Assembly: GCF_014644295.1 (NCBI RefSeq) | Contig: NZ_BMKK01000007.1 | Span: forward strand, 186,001-250,000 | Reading direction: 5' to 3' | DNA: 64,000 bases | Source of the DNA: Emticicia aquatilis | Lineage (GTDB): Bacteria > Bacteroidota > Bacteroidia > Cytophagales > Spirosomataceae | In this document: one piece after another, positions 4,059 to 36,350 of the stretch | Layout: every line of letters starts with the position of its first letter | How positions within the stretch are numbered: the first letter of the stretch is position 1 | Notes under the pieces: generated by a model | What the model saw: only the letters and a program-made list of their open reading frames with translations | Databases searched by the model: none | What the model was told of the DNA's origin: nothing | Made by a program: the position numbers and the translations under genes

Positions 4059-4132
4059 GGGCCTATAGCTCATTCGGTTAGAGCAACTGACTCATAATCA
4101 GTAGGTGCTTGGTTCGATTCCAAGTGGGCCCA
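4059..4132 (+). tRNA. tRNA with CAU anticodon (elongator Met or lysidine-type Ile2)
   Basis: A 74-nt cloverleaf. Acceptor arm GGGCCTA (4059-4065) pairs with TGGGCCC (4125-4131), with A4132 as discriminator. The anticodon stem is ACTGA/TCAGT around loop CTCATAA (4091-4097), and the TpsiC arm is CTTGG-TTCGATT-CCAAG. The anticodon CAU alone cannot separate tRNA-Met from tRNA-Ile2, whose C34 is modified to lysidine. CCA is not encoded (C4133 then A). This gene is the integration target of the island to its right: its 3' 54 nt recur at 36254-36307. Confidence 0.95.
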
Positions 4133-4133
4133 C
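4079..4133. repeat. attL: 55-bp direct repeat, left end of the integrated island
   Basis: Bases 4079-4133 (TAGAGCAACTGACTC... to ...TGGGCCCAC) are identical to 36254-36308. They cover the D-arm remainder, anticodon arm and 3' end of the tRNA, which is the classical tyrosine-recombinase target. Identity stops sharply on both sides (T4078 against G36253; A4134 against C36309), so the crossover lies within this block. The intact tRNA is kept at this end. Confidence 0.95.
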
Positions 4134-4165
4134 ATTGTAAATAGCTGGTAGTCAGTATTTTATGT

Positions 4166-10911: not shown

Positions 10912-12705
10912 TTATTCTTCCAACTTTGTTATACCAACTCCACAAAAAAGCCATTTTACATTATTTTTATCTACCAATATTTTCCTTATATCATCAGAAG
11001 CAATTCTACTATCTTTTGTTGTAAAATGCTTCCATTCTAAACCATCAAATCTAAATAAACCATCATTGTAAGTGCCAAACCATTTTATACCATTTTTATC
11101 TATTGCCATACAAGTAACTTCATGCTTACCAATGGTGCTATTTGTTAAATCATATTTTATCCAACTAACATTATCAAATTTTGAGACTCCCTTCCCAGAA
11201 CAAAACCATTTGTCTCCATTTCTATCAATAAGCATATCTCTAAAACTATCATCTGGAATAATTGCATTTGAAATGTCATATTTAGTCCAAGTATTATTGA
11301 AATATGAAGAGATTCCTTTTGCTGTAGCAAACCACTGCTTTCCATTTTCTTCAAATTTAACAGTATTTACAAAGTTGGTACATAGCCCACTATTAGTATT
11401 GGTATAATTTATCCAATTTCTTCCATCAAATCTACTCTCACCATAACCTGTACTTACCCATAAGGCACCAGATTTATCAAAATCTAATCCAAATATAATA
11501 TCACCAATTATCCCACTATTTTTAGTATTATAATTTTTCCAAATACCATTTTCAAATTTATATAAACCAGTATTTTGACTTCCAATCCATTTGTTGCCAA
11601 GTGAATCTATTACAAATGGACATTTTACACATTCAATCTCCTTTGTTGTATCTACTGCTGAATATTCAAATGAATTTCCATTGTATTGTATAAGTTTCAT
11701 TCCCTGATTAACTGCCCATATATTTCCAGCATTATCAAAAGTAGCATTTACTATCCTTGAAATATTAACTTCATTTTTAGAAGGTAAATTCAATAATTTG
11801 AAATGATTATTTTCAAAAAGATAAAAACCAGATGCTCCACCAACCCAAAGGTTTTTACCATCAAATGCTAATTTTTTAATATGATTGGTTTTTAATGAAG
11901 AGTTTGATGTGTTGTATTTTTTCCAATTCAATCCATCAAAGCAGAAAAGACCTGAACTGGTTGCTACCCAAGTTGTATTTTGAGAATCAACTATAATATC
12001 TGAAACCATGTAGGCAGAAAATCCATCAGGAATATTACTAAAATTCTGCCAATTATCATCTTTATATTGATAAATACCATTAATTAAAGTTCCTATCCAT
12101 ATTTCCTTATTCTGTCCTTCAACAATGCTTGTTACCCACACACTACTTTTATCAATTTGCTCAATTTCTTTCCAAATTTTACCATCAAAAGTTAATAATC
12201 CAACAAGCATTTGACCACACCAAAGTAGATTACTGGAATCCATAAATAAGCAAGAAATACTATTAGATTTCAATTTAGAATTCTTAGTATTAAAATTTTC
12301 TATTTCCCCCCTTTTTGACTTAAACACTCCATTTGAATTTGTGCCAAACCAAACTTCTCCTTTATTTCCTATTGCAATAGTAGAAATAAACTTGCCTTTT
12401 AATTCTTTTATATTATCCCATTTACCTTTAAAATAAGTTAACACACCATCATTAGTGCCTATCCAAATTTTACCTTTCTTATCTTTTTTTAAGCAATTAA
12501 CTTGATAATTGAAATCTTCAAATTGATTGAGTAAATTACCCTTTAAATCTGTTCGTTTTATCCCACTTGTACTACAAATCCAAACTTCATCCTGATTTAT
12601 TAAAATATCTGAGGTCAATTGGGTATTCAAGAAGGATGTCATTTTCTGTGACATACATAGATTAGCAAAAATGACTAAAAAACAGCTCAAAAGAATTCTT
12701 TTCAT
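10912..12705 (-). CDS. Secreted two-component-regulator-type beta-propeller protein (no kinase part)
   Basis: About 597 residues from ATG 12705 (MKRILLSCFLVIFANLCMSQ, a signal peptide). The frame is open to 12762, but that start would bury the signal. The rest is a string of Reg_prop-like blades, each with W-x-G-T/S and a YDG/FDG-x-x-W unit (SGLFCFDGLNWKKYNTSNSS; DGLFRFDGLEWKHFTTKDSR). No membrane helix, histidine kinase or Y_Y_Y domain follows, so it ends as a free propeller. A CVKCP motif before IDSLGNKWIG is shared with the paralogue at 21508-23304 (CSNCP before IDSLGN). Such a protein is unexpected in a defence island. Confidence 0.8.
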   Translation of the reverse strand: MKRILLSCFLVIFANLCMSQKMTSFLNTQLTSDILINQDEVWICSTSGIKRTDLKGNLLNQFEDFNYQVNCLKKDKKGKIWIGTNDGVLTYFKGKWDNIKELKGKFISTIAIGNKGEVWFGTNSNGVFKSKRGEIENFNTKNSKLKSNSISCLFMDSSNLLWCGQMLVGLLTFDGKIWKEIEQIDKSSVWVTSIVEGQNKEIWIGTLINGIYQYKDDNWQNFSNIPDGFSAYMVSDIIVDSQNTTWVATSSGLFCFDGLNWKKYNTSNSSLKTNHIKKLAFDGKNLWVGGASGFYLFENNHFKLLNLPSKNEVNISRIVNATFDNAGNIWAVNQGMKLIQYNGNSFEYSAVDTTKEIECVKCPFVIDSLGNKWIGSQNTGLYKFENGIWKNYNTKNSGIIGDIIFGLDFDKSGALWVSTGYGESRFDGRNWINYTNTNSGLCTNFVNTVKFEENGKQWFATAKGISSYFNNTWTKYDISNAIIPDDSFRDMLIDRNGDKWFCSGKGVSKFDNVSWIKYDLTNSTIGKHEVTCMAIDKNGIKWFGTYNDGLFRFDGLEWKHFTTKDSRIASDDIRKILVDKNNVKWLFCGVGITKLEE

Positions 12706-12732
12706 AAATGATTTAATTATTACAATTATTTT

Positions 12733-12776
12733 CCCAACCAATACATTTATACATATACACAATTTTCTTGGTTGGG
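12733..12776. repeat. Repeat family A, copy 2: CCCAACCAA / TTGGTTGGG, upstream of the propeller gene
   Basis: Perfect 9-bp arms (12733-12741, 12768-12776) lie 28 bp upstream of the propeller ATG at 12705. The spacer contains TATACATATAC-like AT-rich DNA. Location just before a start codon suits an operator or promoter element. Confidence 0.75.
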
Positions 12777-13282: not shown

Positions 13283-13442
13283 TACTTATTAGCTTATTTT
13301 TATAAGAGTACTGAAATAACAGTAGTTTAAGATAAAAATCTTAATTTAAAAGTTATTCAATTTTTTTTACTTTTCTCAAATATATAGTTTTTCAAAAAGT
13401 ATACCCAAATTGGTTAAAAATTTCAATAAATATTTTATTAAT

Positions 13443-14159
13443 ATGACTCTTGAAGAAAGTATATCAAACCTCCATTCTCAATTTCAACTCTTTTCATCAC
13501 AAGATTTTGATAAAGATTTGAGTATATTAAAGGTACTTTCAACTCTTCCAGAATATGCCTATCTTTTTGAATTTTATAAAGTGTATAAAGATTATTTTGG
13601 TATAATAAAGGATACTCAAGCAGTTAGTAGATATTCAACAAATAGAGACCTACCCTTCATTGGTAAAAATGCTTTGGAAAAGCAAGAGGTTAAATTTATT
13701 TTCTATTTTGAGGGCAGTTTAGCAGAAGAAGCCAAACTAAGTATTACTGTTTTATCTCACCTGTGGCTGACAACAGAAGAGGATATTATCAACAAGTTTT
13801 GTGGCAAAGGAAAGTGGTGGTATGAGAATAATTATAGATTTATTAAAGACAATCTTAATATATCAAATGAGGTTATTCAGAATTCATACATCACTGATTC
13901 TGTGAGATTTTCAGATAAAAATGGTAAAAGTGATGATGAAAAAAATAGAAAATTTATAAAACAAGAAATTTTACTTTTAAAGCCTAAATTGGTAATTTGT
14001 GTAGGTACAAAAGCAAAAGATTTGGTGGGCATGAAATATTATGACCAAAATACAAAATTCCATTATGTACCATTTCCATCTTTTCAATTTAAGTCAAAAG
14101 TTGAAGGATACAAAAGTAAGTATGAAGAGTTGAACTCTGTTCTAATTAGTTTAAATTGA
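13443..14159 (+). CDS. Uracil-DNA-glycosylase-like protein
   Basis: About 238 residues from ATG 13443 (MTLEESISNLHSQFQLFSSQ). The frame also allows a TTG start 33 nt earlier. The second half reads FIKQEILLLKPKLVICVGTK, then AKDLVG and FHYVPFPSFQF. This is the late-UDG-superfamily pattern (I..l.PklIv.lG..A, then h.v.HPS), with P in place of H in the PFPS motif. IKDNLNISNEVIQNSYITDS corresponds to the middle region. The fold call is from pattern only; catalytic competence is uncertain. It stands 27 bp upstream of an HNH nuclease gene on the same strand. Confidence 0.55.
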   Translation: MTLEESISNLHSQFQLFSSQDFDKDLSILKVLSTLPEYAYLFEFYKVYKDYFGIIKDTQAVSRYSTNRDLPFIGKNALEKQEVKFIFYFEGSLAEEAKLSITVLSHLWLTTEEDIINKFCGKGKWWYENNYRFIKDNLNISNEVIQNSYITDSVRFSDKNGKSDDEKNRKFIKQEILLLKPKLVICVGTKAKDLVGMKYYDQNTKFHYVPFPSFQFKSKVEGYKSKYEELNSVLISLN

Positions 14160-14186
14160 TAAAATGAAGCCTAAAATTCTAACTTG

Positions 14187-15299
14187 ATGAAAGATTATAT
14201 ATTCTCCAACATCAGTAAGATAATAGAAAGAGATAGCAAGACTACTACTTATAAGTTTGCTCTGTTAAGAGGTGTAATTGACATCATTCAAGATAATTCT
14301 CCTTTCATCACATTTTCAAATGAGAGAGCTTACTTTTCTTTTGGATTATTGATTGAAAAATGGTTGGTTTATTATTACCCAATTTTAGAATCAAATACTA
14401 CAATCCCACAAATTAATGGAGAAAATAATTTAGCTTTTGAAAATCAATTTAAGAGACTTATTTTTTTCTATAAAGATTTAGGTGGTTTATCAGCTTTTTA
14501 TAATGATTTGAAGAATAAGGGAATTCCAAAATATATTGAGAAAGACTTTATTGCATTATCCAACAAATTAAAGAATACAATATCAATGATGCCAATGAAA
14601 TACATAGGCACTTCAATTAATAGGGAATATTATTCTATTTTCAGGTTAGAAAGTCCAACCTCAAAGAAATATACTTCATCAATTGATATACAATTCTTAA
14701 TTGAGAATTATGGTAATTTTTCAATACCAATTGATTATTATGAAGCATTTAAAGTTTTAGGTAGTTTTATTTGTGGGCAAGATTCAATTCTTTTTAAATG
14801 GGCTTCATTTTCTGTTGGTGCATCTAAGCAAAATATATCAATAGAAAAGGTTATTAATGAGGTATTGAAAAGCCCCATCACTGAGAGGGATGTTGCATTG
14901 TCTAAAAAGCTTTACAAAAATATTTTACAAAAGGAAGGAAAAGTATTCTGTGTTTGGACTGGCAAGGCAATTACAAATTATGATATTGACCATGTAATTC
15001 CATTCTCTATTTGGAAAAACAATGACTTATGGAATCTATTACCTTCTATGAGTAGTATGAATAATCAAAAGAGAGATAAAATACCCTCTGCTGGGTTAAT
15101 TGAAAGTAGAAAAGATATGATAATTCACTATTGGGGATTAATCAATGAGTGCCAGCCACACAGATTTAAGAAAGAGATTCAAATTACTCTTTTAGGTACT
15201 AATTCTTTCTCAGATTGGGAAGATACCTCTATAAAGAAACTACAAAACATTAGTGATTACTTTATTTCAAGTAGAGGTTTTGAAGAGTGGAATTCTTAA
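14187..15299 (+). CDS. HNH endonuclease domain protein
   Basis: About 370 residues from ATG 14187. The C-terminal third carries the HNH motif: FCVWTGKAITNYDIDHVIPF near residues 254-273 (D and H of the metal site), NNDLWNLLPSMSSMNNQKRD (central N and final N-x-x-K), and KIPS. There is no Cys cluster. The N-terminal 240 residues are helical and unrecognised (SFALLRG-type start; ISMMPMKYIGTSINREYY), and probably hold partner or target recognition. Pairing with the glycosylase-like gene suggests a two-gene defence unit that nicks or cuts DNA with modified or damaged bases. Confidence 0.75.
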   Translation: MKDYIFSNISKIIERDSKTTTYKFALLRGVIDIIQDNSPFITFSNERAYFSFGLLIEKWLVYYYPILESNTTIPQINGENNLAFENQFKRLIFFYKDLGGLSAFYNDLKNKGIPKYIEKDFIALSNKLKNTISMMPMKYIGTSINREYYSIFRLESPTSKKYTSSIDIQFLIENYGNFSIPIDYYEAFKVLGSFICGQDSILFKWASFSVGASKQNISIEKVINEVLKSPITERDVALSKKLYKNILQKEGKVFCVWTGKAITNYDIDHVIPFSIWKNNDLWNLLPSMSSMNNQKRDKIPSAGLIESRKDMIIHYWGLINECQPHRFKKEIQITLLGTNSFSDWEDTSIKKLQNISDYFISSRGFEEWNS

Positions 15300-15326: not shown

Positions 15327-16772
15327 TTACATATAAAAAGAGTATTTTAATTGTGGGTCTTCCCCTTCTTCAAGGTATTTAAGTATTTCACCAACTTTAT
15401 GGGAACATTCTATAGTAATTGGTGAACGTTTATCAAATTGTGTATTATTCCAATTCATTTTAGTTAATGCAAGAATTTCTTCACAAATCAGATTGGGAGA
15501 TTCATCAAACCTATATAGTCTTATTTGTAAAGGATTTGGAATATATTTTGATGTTGATGTTTCATAATATAAAACAGAACCTCTTGTATAAAGCAAATGA
15601 TTTTTATCATCAAATGCCAAATGTGTACCTCTCAATGGAGGGTAATTATGCTCTCTAAATAATCTATAATTTGTCCTACTAAGTATAGTAACTAAATCTA
15701 AAGCATCTATTTTATGTTTTTTAGCAGCCTGCAAAAAGCCCTCTTCTTCTTCCTCATTATAGTTTGAAGATTTATGAATAACTAATCTTTGTGGGCTTAT
15801 TTTTACTGCTAAACTGTACTCTGTTAATGCTCTATCAATAAGATTAAAGGCCTGCTCTGCTGTAAGATGAGGTATCCTATCATCTTTTCTCTCAAGAATT
15901 TCATCTCCTCTAAGAATTACCCCTTTACCTAACTCATCAAATATTTGAGCAATGCTTGTTTGTGTAGTTTTTCTATCTCTACTCTTATAAAAACTAATCC
16001 CTGCATAACAAACAATTGAAGAGTCTTTCTTTACAATTCCCCAAGGTGTACCTGATGCTTTATAGTAAAGTGCTGTAAAAAAATTCCAAGCTATTGTAGC
16101 TGGGTCTTGCATTTCACCACTTGGTTTTACAATTCTATCTCTTACTAATTGAATTGGTTTACCAAATTTCATAGCTTTGGCTTTTAACAATCTTCTAAAA
16201 TTTTGTTCAATTTCAGATTCTTCATTATCTAAGACATCTTCATCCACTATTTTTTCAATTCCATCCTCTTCAGGAGAATTATTATCAACAATCTCTGGCA
16301 ACAGAATTTTTGTAAAATCTTCTGGTAAAACACACAGGATCACATCTGGGCTTTTATTTTTAGATAGCCATTCTATCTCATTCAAATAAAGTTGAACTAT
16401 ATTTTCAATTAATTTCTCATAAGTCACATTCTTTTTTGTATCTTCAAAATCTGAGTTATTGATTTTTCTGATGTAACTTTCATCATACAGTATTTGAGAA
16501 GCAAATCCTTCATCTGCTTTATATCCCATAAAATCAGTAAACAATCTTGGTTTATTATTTTTTTCTTTGGATGGGATATGATTTTTACAATCATCTAACC
16601 ATGAGCAAATAAGTTCAATACTTATACTTTTTCCTATTATGCCTAATTTTATTATTTGGGGTCTGACTTTATCAATATCATAGGGGAATAATCTTCTGAT
16701 ACCATTCTTTGGGCAAACATCTTCACCAAGTCCAAACTTTAATATTGGTTCTTCTATATATCTTATATTCAT
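15327..16772 (-). CDS. Short prokaryotic Argonaute (MID-PIWI), predicted catalytically inactive
   Basis: 481 residues, the size of short pAgos without N and PAZ domains. The MID region includes LLKAKAMKFGKPIQLVRDRI (about 195-215). PIWI follows with PATIAWNFFTALYYKASGTP, WGIVKKDSSIVCYAGISFYK, KISPQRLVIHKSSNYNEEEE, and the terminal LTKMNWNNTQFDKRSPITIE. Positions of the catalytic DEDX tetrad are changed (GIS instead of GID; VIHKS), as is normal for short pAgos, which bind guides and targets but do not slice. The start codon follows the stop of the SMEK-APAZ gene by 2 nt, so the two are translated as a pair. Confidence 0.85.
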   Translation of the reverse strand: MNIRYIEEPILKFGLGEDVCPKNGIRRLFPYDIDKVRPQIIKLGIIGKSISIELICSWLDDCKNHIPSKEKNNKPRLFTDFMGYKADEGFASQILYDESYIRKINNSDFEDTKKNVTYEKLIENIVQLYLNEIEWLSKNKSPDVILCVLPEDFTKILLPEIVDNNSPEEDGIEKIVDEDVLDNEESEIEQNFRRLLKAKAMKFGKPIQLVRDRIVKPSGEMQDPATIAWNFFTALYYKASGTPWGIVKKDSSIVCYAGISFYKSRDRKTTQTSIAQIFDELGKGVILRGDEILERKDDRIPHLTAEQAFNLIDRALTEYSLAVKISPQRLVIHKSSNYNEEEEEGFLQAAKKHKIDALDLVTILSRTNYRLFREHNYPPLRGTHLAFDDKNHLLYTRGSVLYYETSTSKYIPNPLQIRLYRFDESPNLICEEILALTKMNWNNTQFDKRSPITIECSHKVGEILKYLEEGEDPQLKYSFYM

Positions 16773-16774
16773 AC

Positions 16775-18295
16775 TTAAAAATCAATTAAAATTTGATTTG
16801 TAGATTTATTTTTATCATTGGATTTTCTTGGTAACCAATCTTCATCTTTAATAGCTGGAGAAAATTTCTGAAAAGTAACTGGCTCAATAAAATCAAACTT
16901 ATATGGAACACTTGGAGTATAGTTTAGGTCTGATTTTGCTAAATCAGTAGAAATACAGTTAGAAATAAACAAGAAGTGATTATTAACAGCTTCATTATTT
17001 TCTTGTCTTTTGATTCCTGTAAGGTACTTTGATTCAAAACGGCTTTTATAGCTTCCACTTGGATTTGTAAAACTCCAAGTAGGTCTTATTGACAGATACC
17101 ACTCATCATACTTTTCAATTTCTAAGAAGAAAGCTAAATGCTTGAAACAAATCAAAATTACTTCATTCTTTTTTGCTTTTTCTTTATTGTTCATTTCAAA
17201 TACAACAGTTCTTGGTTGTTCTTTTGTCTCTTTTGTCCAACTCACTTTACGTTCTTTAGGGATTATACTGCTACTACCAAATGCACTAAATCTAAATATT
17301 CTATCATCATTTACCCATTCAATACCCTTTTCTTTCAATAATGGTATTATTGAATTTCTCAAAAGTTCTTTGTATTTCCTTAAATAATTCTCATCTACTT
17401 CATAAAAATCACTGGCATCAATATTATCAATTGTACCTGTATCAATTATTTCTCTTAATGATTCATTTGAGTTATTTAGGTCTCTAAAAGTAAATAGCTT
17501 ATCTTGGAAAAGAATAAAGTCCTCTTTTGATTCCTTACCTAAATTATGAAGTTTTGCAAAAACTAAATCTTTCCCTTTAATATTATGCCTTCCACCTCTT
17601 CTATATGGCAAAAATCTTTCTTTCCTTAATTGAATAACTACTTCTTTAAGTTTTTCATCATTAATGTCTGTTATTGCAAAATACAATTTTTGAGGTGGTC
17701 TAAATTTGATAAAGTTTAAAATCAATTTTTCTGAGAGTATTTTTTCTTTACTATTTAACCTTACTTTTCTTTCTGTTATTTTCAGTTCTGAGAATTCACC
17801 CATTAATAGGTCATTTACTTCTTTTACATAGTTTGTGTTTATAATATCACTAATAATTTTAGATAAATCTGCATTATCAATAATATCCCTGTTTACATCA
17901 AAATCAATATGTCCTTTTGTTAGTTCAGAAAAGTCTTTTCTATAACTATCCTGTTTCTGTGAAATGATATAAACTATAAGTCTATCAAATGTCACATATT
18001 GCTTTTTCTCTACAAATTTTGATATGGTTTCAGTTATCTTTTTACTATCTGAGTCAGATGTAACTTGGATTGCTAATCTTGCTTCATAATCATACAAATC
18101 AATAGCAGGATAATTCTTTTGTTCAGAATTATAGTTTTTTAGATTAACTCTAAATACTTTATTAAGTAAGGGTATTAGTACAGTTTCAGCATGAATATTT
18201 ATATCATAAGTACTTGAAGCTGTATGATTTCTAACCTCTTGTGTAAATCTCCCAAGATATGTTTTAACATCATTTAAAATATTTATTCTGTTCAT
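16775..18295 (-). CDS. SMEK-APAZ protein, effector partner of the short Argonaute
   Basis: 506 residues. The N-terminus is a SMEK domain (about 1-130): NRINILNDVKTYLGRFTQEV, INIHAETVLIPLLNKVFRVN, then PAIDLYDYEARLAIQVTSDS. The D-x(n)-Q-V-T arrangement looks like a PD-(D/E)XK-type nuclease core, but that is inference. From about residue 180 to the end is APAZ, the domain that replaces N/PAZ in short-Argonaute complexes: LFTFRDLNNSNESLREIID, YEVDENYLRKYKELLRNSII, AFFLEIEKYDEWYLSIRPTW. Known short-Ago partners carry SIR2, TIR or DUF4365-type effectors; a SMEK effector is less described. Confidence 0.8.
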   Translation of the reverse strand: MNRINILNDVKTYLGRFTQEVRNHTASSTYDINIHAETVLIPLLNKVFRVNLKNYNSEQKNYPAIDLYDYEARLAIQVTSDSDSKKITETISKFVEKKQYVTFDRLIVYIISQKQDSYRKDFSELTKGHIDFDVNRDIIDNADLSKIISDIINTNYVKEVNDLLMGEFSELKITERKVRLNSKEKILSEKLILNFIKFRPPQKLYFAITDINDEKLKEVVIQLRKERFLPYRRGGRHNIKGKDLVFAKLHNLGKESKEDFILFQDKLFTFRDLNNSNESLREIIDTGTIDNIDASDFYEVDENYLRKYKELLRNSIIPLLKEKGIEWVNDDRIFRFSAFGSSSIIPKERKVSWTKETKEQPRTVVFEMNNKEKAKKNEVILICFKHLAFFLEIEKYDEWYLSIRPTWSFTNPSGSYKSRFESKYLTGIKRQENNEAVNNHFLFISNCISTDLAKSDLNYTPSVPYKFDFIEPVTFQKFSPAIKDEDWLPRKSNDKNKSTNQILIDF

Positions 18296-18524: not shown

Positions 18525-21494
18525 TTATTTGGTTTGGCTACTCCTTTTAAAATGCTGATACATCATATCTGCAATAATAGGTTTTTTATCTGCTGACTCT
18601 ACTGTTTTATAGAAATCAAAGTTATCATTGATATACTCCAAAAACATCTTGCTCATCATCTCTGTCCAAAACTGCTTTTTGTTGGCTTCTGAGTTATCTC
18701 CTTCCATTACTTTCTTTACCTCTGCACTTTGGCTCATTCTTAGATATACATTATTCAAATGGATTCTATCTTCATCTTTTAAATGAATGCCATGTATCTC
18801 ATTTACTTTCTTAATGATTTCAGATAAATAGTCTGTTTCTTCTTCTCCAGTTCCTTTTGTACCTCCTTCTGTCATTGGGTCAAGTTCTCCCTGCTTATCT
18901 TCTAAACTAAGTTTTTGCTCACCTATTTTCTGAATTCTCAGAGAATCTAAATCAATGGAATCTGTAATATCTATACTTGAGCCTTTTCTTTTGGGTAGCT
19001 TCTTTTTGAGGTATTTTAAGAATATGTACAGTTTTTCTAACTCAGCATCAGTAAAATTCATAATTTGAGCAATGTAGCTGTATAATCTGCAATAGGAATT
19101 TATCAATGACCTGTATTCTTCTCTTTTATCTTCTTCTTCAATCTCTTGCCATTTCTCAACTGCTCTATTCAAATAAGGCTGTAATGCTCCATCGCCTTCT
19201 CTTTCTGAGTAGAATACCTTGCAGAACTCATCTAATTCATACTTTGTAAACAAATGAAATGATTTGATTTCTGTGTCTAAATCATAGAGTTTATGTGGGT
19301 CTGTTTCTCCTGTGAGTAGTGTTGAGGTATAGTATGGCTGAAAGGCTTCTAATATAGCTTCTGGTTCATTCACAAAATCAAGTACAAAGGTATCTGTCTT
19401 GCCACTTGTCTTTCTGTTGAGTCTTGAAAGGGTCTGCACACATTGGACCCCACCCAATAGCTTATCTACAAACATGGTATGAATGAGAGGTTCATCAAAT
19501 CCTGTCTGAAACTTGTTGGACACTATCAAAATCCTGAATCTTGGGTCTTTCAACCCATCAGGTATTGAAACATTATTTTGTAAGCCATTAGCAGTGTTTA
19601 ATGAGCTTTCTGTGTGTTCTTCTCCTTCATGTTTGATGCTTCCACTAAATGCCACCAAACAAGAGTAAGGCAGCCTTAGAGCCTTCATTTGCTTAACCAT
19701 TTCTTGCTGAAACAATACACAATGTTTTCTTGACCTAACCACCACCATTGCCCTTGCCTTACCCATGATTTGCTTTTGGGTATGATGCACAAATTGGTTG
19801 AGTATGATATATACTTTCTGTCTGATGGTTTCTGGGTGCGAATCTACATAGTTTACCAGCTCTTTCTTTACCTTGCCTTCTGGTAGCTCTAAATCATCTT
19901 GCTCATCTTCTTGTTTTAGCTTAAACCATCTTTTATAGGTCATGTAGTGTTCCAGCACATCCAAGGTATAGCCTTCTGCTAAGGCTTGTTTCATAGAATA
20001 GGTATGAAAAGCCTCAAACTGTCCTGCTGGATTTTTTCTACCAAAAAGCTCTAAGGTTTTGTTTTTGGGTGTGCCTGTAAACCCAAAGAATGAGATATGT
20101 TTTTGTTTGCCTCTGGCAGTTATTTCTTTGTTTAGTATATCTTCATAATCTTCCTCAGTATTTTCTTCATCTACTTCAATTTCATTGAGTGATAAGGATT
20201 TTTTGAGTTTCTTTGAGGTTTCTCCTGTTTGTGAAGAATGTACTTCATCAATAATAACCCCAAAGGTTCTGCCCTTTAGCTTTGACATGAAATCTGCAAT
20301 CACTCCAAATTTTTGAATGGTTGTAACAATAATGTCATTACCTTTTTCAAGGGCTGTTTTGAGTTGGTCAGAGTTTTTATCAATGGCTTTTACTACCCCT
20401 GCTGTTTGCTCTAATTCTCTTAATGTCTTTTGGAGTTGCTTATCTAATACCTTTCTATCTGTAATTACTACAACTGTATCAAAGATTCTGGTTTTATCAG
20501 TACTATTCTTGTACAATGAAGTAAGTGTGTGTGCCAGCCAACCTATACTATAACTTTTGCCAGAGCCTGTGGTGTGTTGTATGAGGTAGTATTGCCCTGT
20601 ACCATCTGCCTTTATTTGGTTTCTTAGTTTTCTGATAACCTCCAGTTGGTGGTATCTTGGAAATATTAACAAATCCTTTTTCTTTTCTACTACTTTTCCT
20701 GCTTTATCATCCCATTCTTTATCTATTTCTGTGGTTTCAAGCACAAAATTTTCAATAATATCTAATACTGAACTTGGGCTTAGAATCTCCTTCCATAGAT
20801 AAGAAACTTTATAATCATTCTCCACTATTGGATTAATAATACCTTTGTTGTAGGGCAAAAATCTGGTATCTGCTCCATTGAGCTTTGAGGTCATGCCTAC
20901 TGTGTCATTATCTACAATGAAATGCACCAACATTCTTTTGAATTGTAGTAGTGGTTCATTTTTAGGGTCTCTATCAAACTTAAATTGTTTGATTGCATCA
21001 GAAATATCTTGCCCTGTGAGTTGATTTTTGAGTTCAATGCCAATGATGGGTATGCCATTGATACACAGCACCATATCTATTGATTTCTTGGGGTTTTGCT
21101 TGGAGTAGTGTAGCTGCCTTACTACACTTAATTTATTGCAGAGATATTTGGCTTGATGCTCAGGGTTTAGGCTGCTTTTTGGCTCAAAATACACCAAATC
21201 AAGGTAAACTCCTCTCTCTCTGATGCCAGTTCTGAGTACATCAATTACTCCTCTTTTTTGTATATCAATGGCAAGCCTTTTAAGTAGTTTTTCTTCTGAA
21301 TCTTCTCCAAACTGAACCTGCCAGTTTTCATAAGCCTTTGGTTGTGAGGTTTTTATAAAATCAATCACCTCTGTGGGTAGCACACAAAGGTCTTTATTGT
21401 ATTGGTTGTGGTTGGTGGCATGGTATTTCAGACCACCATCTTCATGGCTAATGAGGTATTTTTCAATATGTTCCTCAAATCTTTTTTCAGTCAT
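18525..21494 (-). CDS. hsdR: Type I restriction enzyme R subunit
   Basis: 989 residues, in family range. The HSDR_N nuclease domain is at 130-190 (MVLCINGIPIIGIELKNQLT; IELK is the E-x-K of the PD-(D/E)XK site). Superfamily 2 motifs follow: Walker A QHTTGSGKSYSIGWLAHTL near 315, DEVH in GVIIDEVHSSQTGE, SFFGFTGTPKN, and motif VI in QTLSRLNRKTSG. The C-terminus ends in YQHFKRSSQTK after the subunit-assembly region. It is the last gene of the minus-strand restriction-modification series and lies 13 nt after the propeller gene. Confidence 0.93.
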   Translation of the reverse strand: MTEKRFEEHIEKYLISHEDGGLKYHATNHNQYNKDLCVLPTEVIDFIKTSQPKAYENWQVQFGEDSEEKLLKRLAIDIQKRGVIDVLRTGIRERGVYLDLVYFEPKSSLNPEHQAKYLCNKLSVVRQLHYSKQNPKKSIDMVLCINGIPIIGIELKNQLTGQDISDAIKQFKFDRDPKNEPLLQFKRMLVHFIVDNDTVGMTSKLNGADTRFLPYNKGIINPIVENDYKVSYLWKEILSPSSVLDIIENFVLETTEIDKEWDDKAGKVVEKKKDLLIFPRYHQLEVIRKLRNQIKADGTGQYYLIQHTTGSGKSYSIGWLAHTLTSLYKNSTDKTRIFDTVVVITDRKVLDKQLQKTLRELEQTAGVVKAIDKNSDQLKTALEKGNDIIVTTIQKFGVIADFMSKLKGRTFGVIIDEVHSSQTGETSKKLKKSLSLNEIEVDEENTEEDYEDILNKEITARGKQKHISFFGFTGTPKNKTLELFGRKNPAGQFEAFHTYSMKQALAEGYTLDVLEHYMTYKRWFKLKQEDEQDDLELPEGKVKKELVNYVDSHPETIRQKVYIILNQFVHHTQKQIMGKARAMVVVRSRKHCVLFQQEMVKQMKALRLPYSCLVAFSGSIKHEGEEHTESSLNTANGLQNNVSIPDGLKDPRFRILIVSNKFQTGFDEPLIHTMFVDKLLGGVQCVQTLSRLNRKTSGKTDTFVLDFVNEPEAILEAFQPYYTSTLLTGETDPHKLYDLDTEIKSFHLFTKYELDEFCKVFYSEREGDGALQPYLNRAVEKWQEIEEEDKREEYRSLINSYCRLYSYIAQIMNFTDAELEKLYIFLKYLKKKLPKRKGSSIDITDSIDLDSLRIQKIGEQKLSLEDKQGELDPMTEGGTKGTGEEETDYLSEIIKKVNEIHGIHLKDEDRIHLNNVYLRMSQSAEVKKVMEGDNSEANKKQFWTEMMSKMFLEYINDNFDFYKTVESADKKPIIADMMYQHFKRSSQTK

Positions 21495-21507: not shown

Positions 21508-23304
21508 TTATGGATGGATTATTTTGTTCATTTTTACTAAAGCATTGTTCAAATAATAATAAATTTCATTTTGTGGTGAGATAGCAAAATTAGTATTTAA
21601 GGGTACTCCTAATTCCATTTTTCTGAGGGTGTTGCTATTGGTATAGGCAAAAATACCACTTGAACCATAAAAACATTTTTTATCTGTCTGAGGGTCTATG
21701 ATAATTTTTCTGAAGCCCCATAATGAATTATTATTCTCATCATTTCTGATTATCTGCCATTCATTATTTTTATAATAGGCAATGCCCTTGTATGTTGCTA
21801 CCCATAGAGTGCCTTCTGCATCAAATTGGATATCATTAATGTCATTATCTTTCAGCAGTTCAGATTCTATTTTCTCCCATTTATTGTTGCTATACCTATA
21901 AATTGCATTATATCCATTTACCCAAATATTATTGGTTTTATCTTTTACTATGCCATTTGCTCCAACGTTTTTCAGTACAGGGTCATTTAAAGAATGCTCA
22001 ATGAGTTTTCCAGAGTTGTATTCATAAATACCTTGTACTGCTCCAACCCAAAGGGTGTTATTGTCTTGAAAGAGGGTTAGTATATTCTTCTTGATTTCAA
22101 TGGTTTGTTTTTGCCAACTACCATTGATAAGTTTTAAAAGTCCATGTTTCTCTGTTCCTACTATGATATTTCCTAAACTATCAATTATGGCAGGACAATT
22201 ACTACAAGTAGTATCTTTTGATGGTTGTTTGATAGTTGTAAATTTATCTCCTTCTAACTTTACTATTCCTAACTTAGTATTGATGAGGTAAATGTCTCCT
22301 TCTTTTGAGAAAAAAGGCTTAGTTAAATTTGTAAATGGTATATCGTTGGGCATATTCACATCAAGAGTGGCTATTTGTTTGCCATCATTGATAATGATTG
22401 TTTCTTCAAAAAGATTTGCCAATATATCATCTCCAAACTTTAATATCTTAAAAACATGACCTTTATTTTGTTTAGCTTTTAAACTATCTACAAAATATTG
22501 TGTCCATGTAGCATTATCATATTTAAAAATGCCACTCTCTGATGAAATCCATTTAGTGTCTTTTTCATCTACAATTATAGTATTTACAATAAAGCCTGCA
22601 AAGGTTTTAGGGTCTTTTATAAAGGTTGTCCATTTATCTTCTTTCTGTGTCTTTAATCCACTTGCTTGTGTACCTATCCAAAGTGTATTGCTTTTATCTT
22701 CCTTGATGTCTTTGGCCCATAGTATTGAGCTGAATTCTTTGGTTTTATCAATCCATTCTTTACCATCAAACATCTTAAAGTATGAGAATGGATAGGAAAC
22801 CCAAACTCTACTTTTGGAGTCAACAAATAGCTTATGAATACTGTTATCAAGTCCATCTTTTTTATCATAGTAACTGACACTTCCATTTGATTTCAATAGC
22901 ATAACCCCTTTGCCAGTAGTGCCAACCCAGAGTTCATTGGTAGTGTGATTGTATGAAAGACAGGTAATAACTGTGTTTTCAAAGGTTTTGATAAAAGTTG
23001 GTTTTTTGTTGTGCAATAACCAAAGTCCACTTACTGTGCCAACAAATATTTGCCCTTTTTTACCCTTTTCAACACTTGTAATCATGTTGAAATCATATCC
23101 TTTTTCAGAGCCAAGTACTTCTTTTAGCTGATACTTCTTGTCAGTTATTCTAATATCAAAATTGGTAAAAAAACAAATTTCTTTTTTTTGTTCTACTGCA
23201 TCAACGATTCTTTTTGCATACTGATACTTGGCTATTGGTTGAGCAGATAAGCTACCTATAAATAATACACTAAATATAATACTGACTAATGGTGTGTGTT
23301 TCAT
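21508..23304 (-). CDS. Secreted beta-propeller protein inside the restriction-modification operon
   Basis: About 598 residues from ATG 23304 (MKHTPLVSIIFSVLFIGSLS, a signal peptide ending SAQ). The body is Reg_prop-like blades (GTVSGLWLLHNKKPTFIKTF; NELWVGTTGKGVMLLKSNGS; EGTLWVATYKGIAYYKNNEW). It has a CSNCP motif before AIIDSLGNIIVG, equivalent to CVKCP in the paralogue at 10912-12705. There is no membrane helix or kinase. It is squeezed between hsdS (65 bp) and hsdR (13 bp), so it is co-transcribed with cytoplasmic restriction genes although it is exported. Its role is unknown. Confidence 0.8.
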   Translation of the reverse strand: MKHTPLVSIIFSVLFIGSLSAQPIAKYQYAKRIVDAVEQKKEICFFTNFDIRITDKKYQLKEVLGSEKGYDFNMITSVEKGKKGQIFVGTVSGLWLLHNKKPTFIKTFENTVITCLSYNHTTNELWVGTTGKGVMLLKSNGSVSYYDKKDGLDNSIHKLFVDSKSRVWVSYPFSYFKMFDGKEWIDKTKEFSSILWAKDIKEDKSNTLWIGTQASGLKTQKEDKWTTFIKDPKTFAGFIVNTIIVDEKDTKWISSESGIFKYDNATWTQYFVDSLKAKQNKGHVFKILKFGDDILANLFEETIIINDGKQIATLDVNMPNDIPFTNLTKPFFSKEGDIYLINTKLGIVKLEGDKFTTIKQPSKDTTCSNCPAIIDSLGNIIVGTEKHGLLKLINGSWQKQTIEIKKNILTLFQDNNTLWVGAVQGIYEYNSGKLIEHSLNDPVLKNVGANGIVKDKTNNIWVNGYNAIYRYSNNKWEKIESELLKDNDINDIQFDAEGTLWVATYKGIAYYKNNEWQIIRNDENNNSLWGFRKIIIDPQTDKKCFYGSSGIFAYTNSNTLRKMELGVPLNTNFAISPQNEIYYYLNNALVKMNKIIHP

Positions 23305-23368
23305 TTTGTGGGTGTTAGTATTTACAATCATTTTTATTGGAGAAAATTATTAAAAGTTTTAGGTTTCT

Positions 23369-24610
23369 TTAAGCTACACAAATCTTCCCTGTTACTACAT
23401 TAGAAATAAGGCTTTGTCTGTATTCTTTGAGTGTTGAAATCTTTTGGCTCTCCAGCTCAATATTTTTATCAATCAATGCTGTTTGCTCATCTAAGTAGGC
23501 TACAATGGCTTGTTGTTCTGAAAGTGGTGGTACTGGAATAGATAAATTCTTAATTTTATCAACAGCTAATCCTGGCTGTGCTGCTGATTGAGAATACTGA
23601 TTAAGGTTCATTTTTCTTAATAATTCTCCAAGCCAAATTGTTTCATCCTCCTTTATCATTGTTATTACCACAGCATGTTCAGAAGCCCAGAATTTCCCTT
23701 TTGCATAATTAATATTACCACATAACGCCCCTTGTCTTCCAATCAAGACATAGTGACCTTCATAATTGTACTTATCACAAAATCCACGAAATCCATTTCC
23801 ACCATAAACAGGATAGCTTGACTCATAATCTATTTCTTCTGAAGTTATAGAATCTCCACTTTTTAATATACCTACATATTTTATTTTTTTCATCTGCCAA
23901 TGAGATGGAATTAAACCAATATCAACTAAACCAGAATCTTTCATGGACACATTTTCATCAAGCCCTTTGGTAACAGCCTGATTGATGAGGGCTGCTCTTT
24001 GCTCTTTGAGTAGCTCAATTTTTCTTTCTTTTTTAGCAATTAACTCATCAATCAAAGTAGTTTTTTCATCTAAATAGGTTACTATTGCTTGTTGTTCTGA
24101 AAGTGATGGGATTACTATTGGTATATCTTTTGTCTGAGATTGGTTTAATATGGGTAAGGTTGCAAAATTTGCAAGACTAACTATATTTACTGAATTTGTA
24201 AATAAAAATAATGCTCCAAAATATGGTTTAATTTTTTCATTAAATACTATTGCATTTATTTGTTGATTTGATGAACAAGGGTAATTAACAATTCCAATTT
24301 TACCCAAAGTTGCACCTATACCAACCATTAAAACAGAGCTTTTGGGGAAAACCTTAACTTTTCCATCTTTTACAGCTAATTCTGTTATTTTCCTTTTAGA
24401 ATCATTAAGCTTTACACTCTCAGATGAAAAATCAGCAGGTGTAAACCAATTAAAATCACCACTTTCAAAATATTCTTCATTATCAGTAGGTGGAGTAGTG
24501 CCTGTTTGAACTTCATTTGTTACAAATCTTAGCTTAGAAACACTCCAATTGCTTGGGATTTCACCAATCCAATCAATGTTAGAGGGTTTGTATGTGGGGT
24601 ATTTTTGCAT
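23369..24610 (-). CDS. hsdS: Type I restriction-modification specificity subunit S
   Basis: 413 residues with two target-recognition domains and two conserved coiled-coil helices. The first half starts YKPSNIDWIGEIPSNWSVSK, and its helix reads PSLSEQQAIVTYLDEKTTLI. The second half starts SGLVDIGLIPSHWQMKKIKY, and its helix reads PPLSEQQAIVAYLDEQTALI. The two halves set the two parts of the DNA target, which cannot be read from sequence. It starts 3 nt after the stop of the PD-(D/E)XK nuclease gene, so it is translationally linked to it. Confidence 0.93.
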   Translation of the reverse strand: MQKYPTYKPSNIDWIGEIPSNWSVSKLRFVTNEVQTGTTPPTDNEEYFESGDFNWFTPADFSSESVKLNDSKRKITELAVKDGKVKVFPKSSVLMVGIGATLGKIGIVNYPCSSNQQINAIVFNEKIKPYFGALFLFTNSVNIVSLANFATLPILNQSQTKDIPIVIPSLSEQQAIVTYLDEKTTLIDELIAKKERKIELLKEQRAALINQAVTKGLDENVSMKDSGLVDIGLIPSHWQMKKIKYVGILKSGDSITSEEIDYESSYPVYGGNGFRGFCDKYNYEGHYVLIGRQGALCGNINYAKGKFWASEHAVVITMIKEDETIWLGELLRKMNLNQYSQSAAQPGLAVDKIKNLSIPVPPLSEQQAIVAYLDEQTALIDKNIELESQKISTLKEYRQSLISNVVTGKICVA

Positions 24611-29128: not shown

Positions 29129-30835
29129 TCATCTCTTAATTATCTTCTGAAACAAACCATCACTTTCATCCTCCAGCTTCAATAAATCTGCTGTAATTTC
29201 CTGCAAACTTCTGAGAGGCTTATATTGATAAAAATACTTGGTAAAGTTTATCTCATAGCCAACTTTATCTTTGGTTCTGTCCATCCAAGCATTAGGTAGG
29301 TGTGGTTTTACCTCTGTTTCAAAGTAGGTTTCTACATCAGTTGATAGGGGGATTCTTTCAAAATCTCTAAGGCTACCATCTGCTTTAGGTAGCTTTGATT
29401 TCTTATCTAACACTGGTGCATCATTTTCCATCAATGGCTGCTCAATAGTTACTTTGGTATAGCCAAAATACTCATTTGGAAACACCTTAACTATTGATTC
29501 ATCAGTAGGAAAGTGGTATTGCTTTATAATCTCATCTCTTTGCTCATCAGTGATAAACTTTCTTTTGCTACCCAATGATTTTTTCATGGTCTGGCAAAAA
29601 TTAGTAGCATTGATAAGCTGTACTTTACCTTTTCTGTTGGCTTTCTTTTTGTTGGTAACTATCCAGATATAGGTACTTATGCCAGTATTGAAAAAGAGTT
29701 GGTCAGGCAGAGCTACAATAGCTTCAAGCCAATCATTTTCAATTATCCATTTTCTGATTTCAGATTCACCAGAGCCAGCATCACCAGTAAACAAAGGAGA
29801 GCCATTAAAGACCACCCCAACTCTGCTACCTTTGGTTTCCATTTTAGCAATCATGTGTTGCAAGAATAGCAATGAACCATCAGAGCTTCTTGGAGTACCC
29901 ACAGCAAACCTTCCTTGTGGGTTTTGAGCTTCTGCTTCAACAAAATCCTGCTCAGATTTCCATGAAACTCCAAAAGGTGGATTAGTAATCATGTAATCAA
30001 AGGTTTTATCTTGGAGTTTATCTTCTGAAAGAGATGAACCTAAATGAATATTATTAGGGTTTTGCCCTGTAATGAGCATATCTGATTTACAGATGGCATA
30101 GGTTTGAGGATTGAGTTCCTGCCCAAATAGCCTAATGTCAATATCAGCATTAATATTTTCAAGAATCCATTCTTTACCAATGCTCAACATTCCACCTGTA
30201 CCACAACAAGGGTCAAAGATGCTTCTTATTTTGCCTTCACCTTGTAGGTCTTCCTTGTCTTCTGCAAATACCAATGCTACCAATAGTTTTACTACATCTC
30301 TTGGGGTATAGTGTTCTCCACTGGTTTCATTGCTCATCTCAGAGAATTTCCTCAGTAATTCCTCAAAAACCTGCCCCATAGTGTGGTTATTCACTACATC
30401 AGGGTGTAAATCAATCTCTTTGAACTTAGTGATAAGTAAGTATAACCTATTGTTTTTGAGAAGTTTTTCAATGGGTTTTTCTAACTGGAAATTCTCAATA
30501 ATTTCAAGGACATTCTTAGAATAGCCATTGAGGTAGTTTTGAAAATTGAGTTTTAGGCTATTGGCAGTAAGCCTTGATAAATCATATTGTGAATGATTAA
30601 AGAAACTCAAACCAATCTGATTTTGAATAATTGGGCTTGGGTCTTCAATTTTATCTTTGTAGGTATTGTAGAGTTCATGTACTTTATCTTTGTGAGGTTC
30701 AAGCACACAGTCCAGCCTTCTTAATACTACAAAAGGTAGGATTACATCTCCATATTCATGTTGTTTGAAAAGTCCTCTGAGTACATCATCACACACATTC
30801 CAGATAAAGGAAGAAATTTCTTGGTGGTTAGTCAT
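29129..30835 (-). CDS. hsdM: Type I restriction-modification DNA methyltransferase subunit M
   Basis: 568 residues. HsdM N-terminal helical domain (SSFIWNVCDDVLRGLFKQHE). The SAM-binding motif is SIFDPCCGTGGMLSIGKEWI, and the catalytic N6-adenine motif is MITNPPFGVSWKSE. GEHYTPRDVVKLLVAL is the usual family landmark. With HsdS it methylates one adenine on each strand of the target. It is encoded alone, with a protease cassette on the other strand between it and the rest of the system, and a family B repeat about 120 bp upstream of its start. Confidence 0.95.
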   Translation of the reverse strand: MTNHQEISSFIWNVCDDVLRGLFKQHEYGDVILPFVVLRRLDCVLEPHKDKVHELYNTYKDKIEDPSPIIQNQIGLSFFNHSQYDLSRLTANSLKLNFQNYLNGYSKNVLEIIENFQLEKPIEKLLKNNRLYLLITKFKEIDLHPDVVNNHTMGQVFEELLRKFSEMSNETSGEHYTPRDVVKLLVALVFAEDKEDLQGEGKIRSIFDPCCGTGGMLSIGKEWILENINADIDIRLFGQELNPQTYAICKSDMLITGQNPNNIHLGSSLSEDKLQDKTFDYMITNPPFGVSWKSEQDFVEAEAQNPQGRFAVGTPRSSDGSLLFLQHMIAKMETKGSRVGVVFNGSPLFTGDAGSGESEIRKWIIENDWLEAIVALPDQLFFNTGISTYIWIVTNKKKANRKGKVQLINATNFCQTMKKSLGSKRKFITDEQRDEIIKQYHFPTDESIVKVFPNEYFGYTKVTIEQPLMENDAPVLDKKSKLPKADGSLRDFERIPLSTDVETYFETEVKPHLPNAWMDRTKDKVGYEINFTKYFYQYKPLRSLQEITADLLKLEDESDGLFQKIIKR

Positions 30836-34863: not shown

Positions 34864-36102
34864 TCAATTAAACTTTGTCAGAAGGTTGGCATATTGCTTT
34901 TTAGTTTCATCCTCAAAGCTATCAAGATAGGATTGTGTTGTGGCAAGGTTACTATGTCCTAATGCTTCTGAGATAAATTCTGTTGAAACACCACTTCTCT
35001 TGAGTACAGTTGCAAATGAGTGCCTTGCAGAGTAGAAAAGGGGCATTTTTTCAAAACCAAGTTTTAATCCTATTCTCTTCATGTAGGTATTTATCAACTT
35101 GTTTGTATATTGAATTAACTCTTTTTCTCTTTTTGGAGTAACCTTTGGCTCAAGGATTGGCAATAAATAATCATCAGGATTATTACTTCTATTCTTCCAC
35201 TTATCAATAATTTCTTTGGCTTTATCTGACAATATAATTGTTATGGCACTTTGATTTGCTTTTGTTGAAAGTTGGGTTTTGGCTCTAATGAATGTAATTT
35301 TATCAGATTCAAGATTTTTAATTTTGAGTCTTGCTAAGTCTTTTAGATTAATTCCTTGGCATAAATATGATAAGCACCACAAATCTTTGGCTTTATCTTC
35401 TGATGTTCCTGTGATAGTTTCATAATTGAAAATCTTCTCAATCTCAGATATTGTGAAGGCTTTCTTGATGTTTCTGCTGGCTGGTATTTGAAATTTGTTT
35501 TTCTTGAATGGATATAGCTCTTTTGCAATTATCCCATTTTCAATAGCTTGATTATATATTGTTCTGAGACTTCTTAAATAGATACCAATAGTAGTAGATG
35601 AGTTCCCTTCATTTAACATTGATTTTTCATAATCATTTAAGAATTTTGGTGTAATATCTTCAAATGTCAATTTTTTCTTAAACTTCTTTAATGAATTTGA
35701 TGCACAGGTGTAAGAATCAGCAGTAGAAACCCTGCTTTGGCTTTTTAATGCAGAAATATAGTTTTCAAAATTTTTGTAAACATCTTTTGATTTTACCTGC
35801 TCTTCTGGGTTGACAAAAAAAGTGTCTTTAAATTTATCAAAAGTGAATTCATCAATTTTACTTCCAACTTCTTCTGCTTTTTGTTTAATGGCTTCACAGT
35901 TAAGTCTTACATCTTTCAACCATTCATCTCTTAGCTTTGAAGAAAATAGTTTTTCAAATTGTTCTTTTGACAAATCTATCCCAATACTATAAGTTCTATT
36001 TTGCCTATTGAAAATGACCCTCAGCTTCAAAGGGTATTTGCCTTCAATATTAGCTTTTCTTGTGTCTTGAATTATTGCAAAGGTGGGTTTTAAGAGTCCC
36101 AT
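34864..36102 (-). CDS. int: Tyrosine recombinase (site-specific integrase)
   Basis: 412 residues. N-terminal arm-binding region (KPTFAIIQDTRKANIEGKYP, RTYSIGIDLSKEQFEKLFSS), SAM-like core-binding domain (DSYTCASNSLKKFKKKLTFE), then the catalytic domain. Catalytic residues: the Arg I region is CQGINLKDLARLKIKNL (Arg near KDLARL is displaced), HSFATVLKRSG follows YSAR (H-x-x-R as RHSF), LGHSNLATTQSYL gives the box II His and the nucleophilic Tyr. It lies 151 bp inside attR and reads inward. It should catalyse the tRNA-targeted integration seen here. Confidence 0.93.
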   Translation of the reverse strand: MGLLKPTFAIIQDTRKANIEGKYPLKLRVIFNRQNRTYSIGIDLSKEQFEKLFSSKLRDEWLKDVRLNCEAIKQKAEEVGSKIDEFTFDKFKDTFFVNPEEQVKSKDVYKNFENYISALKSQSRVSTADSYTCASNSLKKFKKKLTFEDITPKFLNDYEKSMLNEGNSSTTIGIYLRSLRTIYNQAIENGIIAKELYPFKKNKFQIPASRNIKKAFTISEIEKIFNYETITGTSEDKAKDLWCLSYLCQGINLKDLARLKIKNLESDKITFIRAKTQLSTKANQSAITIILSDKAKEIIDKWKNRSNNPDDYLLPILEPKVTPKREKELIQYTNKLINTYMKRIGLKLGFEKMPLFYSARHSFATVLKRSGVSTEFISEALGHSNLATTQSYLDSFEDETKKQYANLLTKFN

Positions 36103-36253: not shown

Positions 36254-36308
36254 TAGAGCAACTGACTCATAATCAGTAGGTGCTTGGTTCGATTCCAAGT
36301 GGGCCCAC
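36254..36308. repeat. attR: 55-bp direct repeat, right end of the island
   Basis: Perfect copy of 4079-4133. The 5' part of the tRNA is absent here (preceding bases ATATGTG are unrelated), so this is a truncated, non-functional tRNA copy. The next bases belong to the original chromosome. Confidence 0.95.
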
Positions 36309-36313
36309 CTCTT

Positions 36314-36350
36314 AAAAATCCTGATAATCAAACGATTATCAGGATTTTTT
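36314..36350. terminator. Original tRNA terminator, displaced by the island
   Basis: AAAAATCCTGATAATC and GATTATCAGGATTTTT form a 16-bp stem with a 4-nt loop (36314-36349) and T- and A-runs on both sides, so it could act in both directions. It lies 5 bp after attR, where the terminator of the uninterrupted tRNA gene would be. Confidence 0.85.

Follow-up and report, generated by a model that had tools for sequence, protein, structure and literature searches.

Two adjoining genes in a 64,000-nucleotide stretch of the Emticicia aquatilis genome (contig NZ_BMKK01000007.1, positions 186,001 to 250,000; hereafter the window) encode a short prokaryotic Argonaute (pAgo) and, upstream of it, a protein that joins an N-terminal SMEK domain to an APAZ region. 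The pair is a divergent, newly found SMEK-type SPARDA, and the kind of system to which it belongs is already known: SPARDA systems combine a short pAgo with a nuclease-APAZ protein, and PMC12205087 lists SMEK among their nuclease domains (DREN, SMEK, MRR, HNH). We consider it likely that the pair is a defence system orthologous to the KjAgo/SMEK-APAZ pair of Kordia jejudonensis, acting by collateral-type DNA cleavage and carried on an integrative element of approximately 32 kb. The features of the pair, in window coordinates, are:

16775..18295, minus strand: SMEK-APAZ effector, first gene of the pair (506 amino acids, ATG start)
17816..18295, minus strand: SMEK domain, residues 1-160, a predicted PD-(D/E)XK-like nuclease (SMEK_N match, invariant residues, model)
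16802..17785, minus strand: APAZ region, approximately residues 171-498, matching the APAZ-bearing chains of SPARDA, SPARHA and SPARTA structures
16773..16774, minus strand: intergenic gap GT, 2 nt between the SMEK-APAZ stop codon and the pAgo ATG
15327..16772, minus strand: short pAgo (MID-PIWI), second gene (481 amino acids, ATG start)

The gene pair and its known relatives

Both genes lie on the minus strand and meet at a TAA-GT-ATG junction, in agreement with the arrangement and the 2-nt spacing given in a preliminary description of this DNA, and the short gap makes translational coupling of the two likely. Both reading frames are open, with lengths like those of aligned relatives. The SMEK-APAZ protein matches SMEK_N in Pfam (7.7e-44, residues 10-148) and NCBIfam (6.2e-29), as well as the PADLOC profile Aga_REase-PNTD1-PNTD2 (1.1e-123, residues 1-498); the pAgo matches PADLOC pAgo_I (2.1e-169, residues 1-481), and both PADLOC profiles date from 2023. 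Against Pfam, the pAgo gave no Piwi match and nothing above the cut-off. Its family profile aligns over its full length with short pAgos of known structure, and among the short pAgos in the PDB 9om4_B is the best phmmer match (2.9e-72), with 9jsb_A at 2.1e-64. The composition is that of a SPARDA: a pAgo consisting of MID and PIWI only (481 residues, matched by pAgo_I over its full length), an APAZ partner identified by PADLOC, sequence, profile and fold, and, by the SMEK_N match, one of the listed nuclease domains, the nuclease function itself being predicted. No TIR or SIR2 NADase was found on the APAZ protein, for which Pfam returned SMEK_N above the cut-off and a sub-threshold SBDS_C only. 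The E. aquatilis genome (6.75 Mb, 36 contigs) contains a single SMEK gene and a single match to the window pAgo.

Residues 257-491 of the APAZ half match the SPARDA chain 9jsb_D by sequence (4.4e-29 by profile). An AlphaFold model of the full SMEK-APAZ protein (mean pLDDT 79.9, pTM 0.55) was compared with known structures by Foldseek; SPARDA chains rank first (9qbp_C, 3.0e-16), with SPARHA 9om4_A at 2.0e-9, and the predicted fold confirms the APAZ assignment. The DREN-SPARDAs of Novosphingopyxis, Xanthobacter and Enhydrobacter (9jsb/9jsz, 9qcc/9qbq, 9qbp) are homologous to the window pair in both pAgo and APAZ. SPARHA (Acidithiobacillus caldus, 9om4) is likewise related through its pAgo and, by profile (7.2e-14) as well as by fold, its APAZ, but its effector is HNH. 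SPARTA and SPARSA (TIR- or SIR2-APAZ) share the design of a short pAgo with an APAZ partner, whereas their effectors are NADases and their pAgos are more distant (8ifk_B, 1.5e-35).

The closest counterpart with an experimental history is the Kordia jejudonensis pair (locus L079), recovered in an alignment-based scan of genome contigs in which a single-sequence query had found no relative. The two proteins occur in the same order with abutting genes (a 1-nt overlap in Kordia, a 2-nt gap in the window), the two pAgos belong to a common all-SMEK set in the pAgo tree, and seven invariant SMEK residues are common to both. The likeness is tempered by identities of only 35% over 450 columns for SMEK-APAZ and 58% over 488 for the pAgo, and by the long end branch of the window pAgo (0.64). 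Residues 2-161 of the Kordia SMEK domain are identical to PDB 26bh_D, which its depositors named the Mrr domain of a Mrr-APAZ pAgo. PMC10810196 and PMC12205087 both cite Kim, Jung & Lim 2020 (BBRC 525:755) for the Kordia pair and describe it as an RNA-guided heterodimeric nuclease, and PMC10104839 places KjAgo among the Argonautes without preference for 5'-phosphorylated guides. The preliminary description, which knew of no characterised SMEK-type short-Argonaute system and would have counted an already published example of this domain combination as a refutation, is overtaken on this point: the Kordia pair, studied in 2020, is such a system, and together with 26bh and the PADLOC profiles it rules out a new class. 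SMEK-SPARDA is nevertheless little studied, our literature search having led to that single experimental study and our PDB search to that single domain structure.

A second reading concerns how the nuclease is used. The effector might be restricted to its target, SMEK cutting the guide-bound DNA in substitution for a lost PIWI cut, with no collateral degradation. The title of the 2020 study, which reportedly contains the words "nucleic acid-guided nuclease", suits this account. So does PMC10810196, where the Kordia system is summed up as cutting target DNA under RNA guidance, but PMC12205087 reports weak collateral activity on both dsDNA and ssDNA for the Kordia complex, and DREN-SPARDA relatives, with homologous pAgo and APAZ, are reported in both papers to act by collateral cleavage. 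We therefore regard target-restricted cleavage as unlikely and favour collateral-type cleavage.

Profile searches found SMEK_N in 10 of 395 sampled genomes of the phylum, where it adjoins a pAgo in three (the window, G046 and G087); the other seven include G370, whose contig ends inside the gene. The window pAgo has matches in 20 of the 395, its own genome counted. Matches to SMEK-APAZ occur in 6 of 58 wider relatives (again with its own genome), two of them to the APAZ half only and two to the SMEK half only; the 10 further genomes searched within the genus have none. From all sources, pAgo sequence lies directly downstream on the same strand in 33 of 34 distinct SMEK-APAZ genes, including a 48-residue pAgo start near a contig end (L073) and a pAgo split into two open reading frames (L103); the 34th gene (L080) is short, at 431 residues, with no pAgo in the 310 bases remaining before its contig ends. 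As the pAgo accompanies 33 of the 34, the pairing is not due to chance, and the survey of SMEK genes beside PIWI genes suggested in the preliminary description thus bears out the association. By title, the 25 named genome loci among the 34 comprise 23 from Bacteroidota, one from Chlorobiota and one from Balneolota. Plasmids of Parabacteroides, Vibrio, Methylomonas, Methylibium, Novosphingobium and Frigidibacter carry further copies, as does one IMG/VR contig, and three loci have defence neighbours: BREX (Vibrio tubiashii p123), type ISP restriction (Methylibium) and a type I methylase (Methylomonas). In the split case, on Frigidibacter mobilis plasmid pcai42A (L103:4440-5845, plus strand), the two reading frames beside SMEK-APAZ are of 371 and 95 residues, and the PLSDB table, which is incomplete, lists no gene in this stretch. 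Phage records yielded only a SMEK-like fragment of 18% identity, in two records of one Klebsiella phage.

The lack of a SMEK-APAZ match in the 10 other genomes searched within the genus would suit a decayed or silent passenger of the integrative element. A Bacteroidota-type promoter pattern also has no match in the 229-nt gap upstream of SMEK-APAZ, though with 5 matches window-wide against 5.09 expected the pattern is at chance level, and this promoter candidate was rejected. The open frames, their lengths and the retention of the seven residues common to other SMEK domains all speak against decay, and we judge the passenger account very improbable next to that of a working defence system.

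The SMEK domain and its putative active site

The invariant residues E37, N54, N56, N61, D66, Q77 and K86 are found in all 34 domains of one alignment (A5) and all 17 of a second (A6), the two overlapping in membership. A5 represents 34 of the 48 SMEK domains found (the 48 include two duplicates); neither A5 nor A6 contains L054, L095, L096 or L097, and the broken, divergent or short L085, L086 and L089 are in no alignment. Of the 17 A6 domains, 15 come from proteins in which a profile search found no APAZ, L042 and L084 among these being cut by contig ends. The AIDL...QVTSD pattern highlighted in the preliminary description is present as A64-I65-D66-L67 and Q77-V78-T79-S80-D81. Modelled by itself (mean pLDDT 86.4, pTM 0.82), the SMEK domain has a predicted helix (residues 32-48), three strands (53-54, 67-69 and 74-79), a second helix (85-96) and a further strand (105-110); D66 falls at the second strand and Q77 within the third. 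This succession, helix-strand-strand-strand-helix-strand, is the order of the PD-(D/E)XK core. The position of the usual lysine, two residues after Q77, is occupied by T79, and K86, which opens the next helix, is the one lysine that never varies. With a Q-x-T motif, the catalytic lysine may therefore come from that following helix, and SMEK may have an active site with a displaced catalytic lysine.

The fold comparisons are less decisive. None of the 290 Foldseek matches to the SMEK model reached E <= 0.001. EcoO109I (two chains, 0.051), Can2 and BamHI, all PD-(D/E)XK nucleases, take ranks 1-3 and 5; rank 4 and many further entries belong to unrelated enzymes. The Kordia domain structure 26bh, labelled Mrr by its depositors, is absent from the matches listed (the best 50 of the 290; database to April 2026). 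A profile link to DREN was tried and rejected: against five DUF4365/DREN domains, hhalign placed Q77 opposite the DREN glutamine, yet with a probability of 1.4%. In view of the Foldseek and hhalign results, the PD-(D/E)XK-like fold is likely rather than demonstrated. The variant PD-(D/E)XK core of the preliminary description is thus plausible in its element order, in the invariance of D66, Q77 and K86 and in the Mrr label, while the significant match to a restriction-endonuclease fold that it had proposed to look for did not emerge.

These observations also bear on whether SMEK is a DNase at all. An RNase or another effector, directed at NAD or protein, could use the PD-(D/E)XK-like core as a scaffold only; the displaced lysine (Q77-x-T79, K86), the non-significant PDB fold match and the diversity of effectors carried by related pAgos in the tree (DUF4062, trypsin-like, PNP_UDP_1, EAD8) are all compatible with this. 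The invariance of E37, D66, Q77 and K86 argues against it, as do the nucleases leading the weak Foldseek list, though unrelated enzymes share that list, and the DNase activity reported for the Kordia complex in PMC10810196 and PMC12205087. A non-DNase effector is, in our assessment, quite improbable, and we retain a DNA-cleaving SMEK domain.

In DREN-SPARDA, the DREN (DUF4365) domain carries D41, Q60 and K62, whereas the window SMEK domain has D66, Q77-x-T79 and K86, and the SMEK-DREN profile match is not significant. We tentatively raise the possibility, somewhat doubtful on balance, that SMEK nucleases form a class of their own in defence, marked by a displaced lysine (E-D-Q-x-T...K), recruited independently to short Argonautes and common to other defence-like proteins; SMEK-SPARDA would then keep the Argonaute trigger of DREN-SPARDA but have its own catalysis, substrate and choice of 5' guide end. 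With the open frames of this divergent copy and the catalogue of residues that never vary, the catalytic site can be tested by point mutants. Two other genes (L045:4320-7277, minus strand; L100:4001-6667, plus strand) encode long proteins with N-terminal SMEK and weak, sub-threshold NACHT and nSTAND1 matches, architectures that suggest SMEK may serve other defence sensors too.

The Argonaute, the proposed mechanism and effector exchange

PMC12205087 names 14 guide contacts for NbaAgo, which were mapped onto the window pAgo by profile alignment. Seven are identical: N181, F182, R183, K187, Q224, N232 and K240 of NbaAgo correspond to N191, F192, R193, K197, Q222, N230 and K238. Among them are all three contacts to the 5'-phosphate (R183, K187, K240) and both contacts to the U2 base (Q224, N232), so that this part of the site is shared with DREN-SPARDA; K197, N230 and K238 are constant in all 27 rows of alignment A4. 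The first-base pocket is unlike that of NbaAgo (W159 to L158, W201 to R211), the main-chain contact L233 is F231, S447, N451 and R459 are replaced by N443, D447 and E455, and R221 falls in a stretch absent from the window pAgo. Given these seven non-identical contacts, guide preference may differ from that of NbaAgo: we predict that the phosphate contacts hold the guide as in NbaAgo, but that another first base is preferred. At the sites corresponding to the catalytic residues of PIWI, active Argonautes have GID and HRDG. The window pAgo reads GIS and HKSS there (S260 is present in all but one of the 27 rows of A4, S336 in all 27), and its PIWI domain is probably catalytically inactive.

In a tree of 41 pAgos, 26 SMEK-partnered sequences form one set (100/100), and the window pAgo falls with Kordia in an all-SMEK subset of 18 rows within it (98/93). 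Of the 20 phylum genomes in which the pAgo has a match, the tree takes the ten best, leaving L021-L030 unused, and it omits L032 and L033 (which share their contigs with L081 and L083) and L101-L103; alignment A3 (26 rows) omits L054, L073, L095-L097 and L101-L103.

The mechanism we propose would begin with a heterodimer formed through APAZ and MID-PIWI, as the citing papers report for Kordia. A small guide RNA would sit in the MID pocket, where the conserved residues lie, and would pair with invading plasmid or phage DNA, PIWI presumably making no cut. Target pairing would cause complexes to assemble and bring their SMEK domains together, after the manner of NbaSPARDA, for which PMC12205087 describes a target-induced filament and a nuclease tetramer. 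SMEK, PD-(D/E)XK-like and working through E37, D66, Q77 and K86, would then cut DNA without sequence preference, and the invader would be lost or the cell would die or go dormant. The guide-triggered nuclease of the preliminary description is accordingly still the best reading and probably right, its activity in the window being a prediction from sequence.

Several observations weigh against this account. The activity of the window pair is a prediction. What speaks for the nuclease fold is its topology, the invariant residues and the name chosen by the depositors of 26bh, with the canonical lysine of Q-x-K replaced in the Q-x-T motif, no Foldseek match at the threshold (0/290) and an hhalign probability of 1.4%; the full-length model has a pTM of 0.55. 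Half of the NbaAgo contacts (7/14) are not identical, the window pAgo was flagged as a long branch (0.64) in a tree with several long branches, and the collateral activity of Kordia is called weak in PMC12205087.

The SMEK-partnered pAgos of L083, L096 and L097 fall outside the main set, in a neighbouring set of 7 (91/86) among partners of other effectors. The SMEK label changes four times on the best tree, at least twice on well-supported branches, and effectors have therefore been exchanged between related pAgos. This swapping, towards DUF4062, trypsin-like, PNP_UDP_1 and EAD8 partners, is the more open lead. Directly upstream of a related short pAgo in the window's own taxonomic family (L057:7439-9004, minus strand, genome G406), Trypsin_2 (1.8e-7) is fused to APAZ, so that a predicted protease takes the position otherwise held by a nuclease or NADase; our literature search found nothing on a trypsin-like or protease domain together with APAZ. 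DUF4062-APAZ proteins lie upstream of short pAgos of the neighbouring tree set in genomes G320 and G353 (L034:6368-7768, plus strand, 2.7e-25; L035:6306-7697, plus strand, 1.7e-23), and the same search found nothing on DUF4062 with APAZ. In Acidobacteria, PNP_UDP_1, of the phosphorylase superfamily, is fused to APAZ upstream of a short pAgo (L093:3915-5762 and L094:3876-5729, both plus strand), possibly as a nucleoside-destroying effector. On plasmid2 of Nostoc carneum NIES-2107 (L098:3938-5215, plus strand), an APAZ protein beside a short pAgo has a weak N-terminal EAD8 match (9.7e-5, below the curated cut-off) and may recruit its effector in trans.

The probable integrative element and neighbouring genes

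The pair lies between two copies of a direct repeat, among the following features:

4059..4133, plus strand: tRNA-Met (CAT), integration site, intact
4079..4141, plus strand: left copy of a 63-bp direct repeat that covers the 3' part of tRNA-Met plus the next 8 bases, element end
18525..21494, minus strand: type I restriction HsdR, directly upstream of the pair (229-nt gap), not part of it
23369..24610, minus strand: type I restriction HsdS, neighbour
29129..30835, minus strand: type I restriction HsdM, neighbour
34864..36102, minus strand: tyrosine integrase, just inside the right element end
36254..36316, plus strand: right copy of the 63-bp repeat, 95% identical, other element end

The repeat copies are 32,175 bases apart, start to start, which gives the size of the element. 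Of the 10 other genomes searched within the genus, three (G404, G398 and G399) show an empty site, where the flanks are 82-84 bases apart, corresponding to the tRNA and the repeat end, with right-flank matches of 81, 80 and 37 bases, respectively. G399 is the weakest case, because short matches to the same stretch occur elsewhere, including in the window's own genome. The flanks are 750 bases apart in G403 (the left match stopping 56 bases short of the tRNA) and 22,605 bases apart in G401 (with a right match of 37 bases), which suggests that other inserts can enter this site; the remaining five genomes have no right-flank match beside the left one. On account of the repeats, the integrase and the empty sites, the SMEK pair, HsdR, HsdS, HsdM and further cargo most likely belong to one element, and their joint carriage illustrates how such pairs move.

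Two genes converge on the pAgo gene: one for an HNH_4 protein (371 residues, 14184-15299, plus strand) whose HNH part resembles Cas9 profiles, and one for a UDG-superfamily protein (249 residues, 13410-14159, plus strand). Neither was retained as a part of the system: no UDG match lies within 1.5 kb of the HNH relative in any of nine other loci (L106-L114), and the HNH protein has no match in G046 or G087, the other sampled genomes with the SMEK pair. In seven of the nine loci, a gene for 283-288 residues stands beside the HNH relative in the same direction. A further gene on the element encodes a 550-residue protein (26350-28002, plus strand) with a trypsin-like N-terminal part (Trypsin_2 below the cut-off; PADLOC RT-Protease_XI, 5.2e-10). 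Reg_prop beta-propeller proteins are encoded at 10912-12762 and, between HsdS and HsdR, at 21508-23331 (both minus strand). Between HsdS and HsdM, a PDDEXK_4 protein (24614-25687, minus strand) matches the candidate defence family PDC-S26 (8.2e-205).

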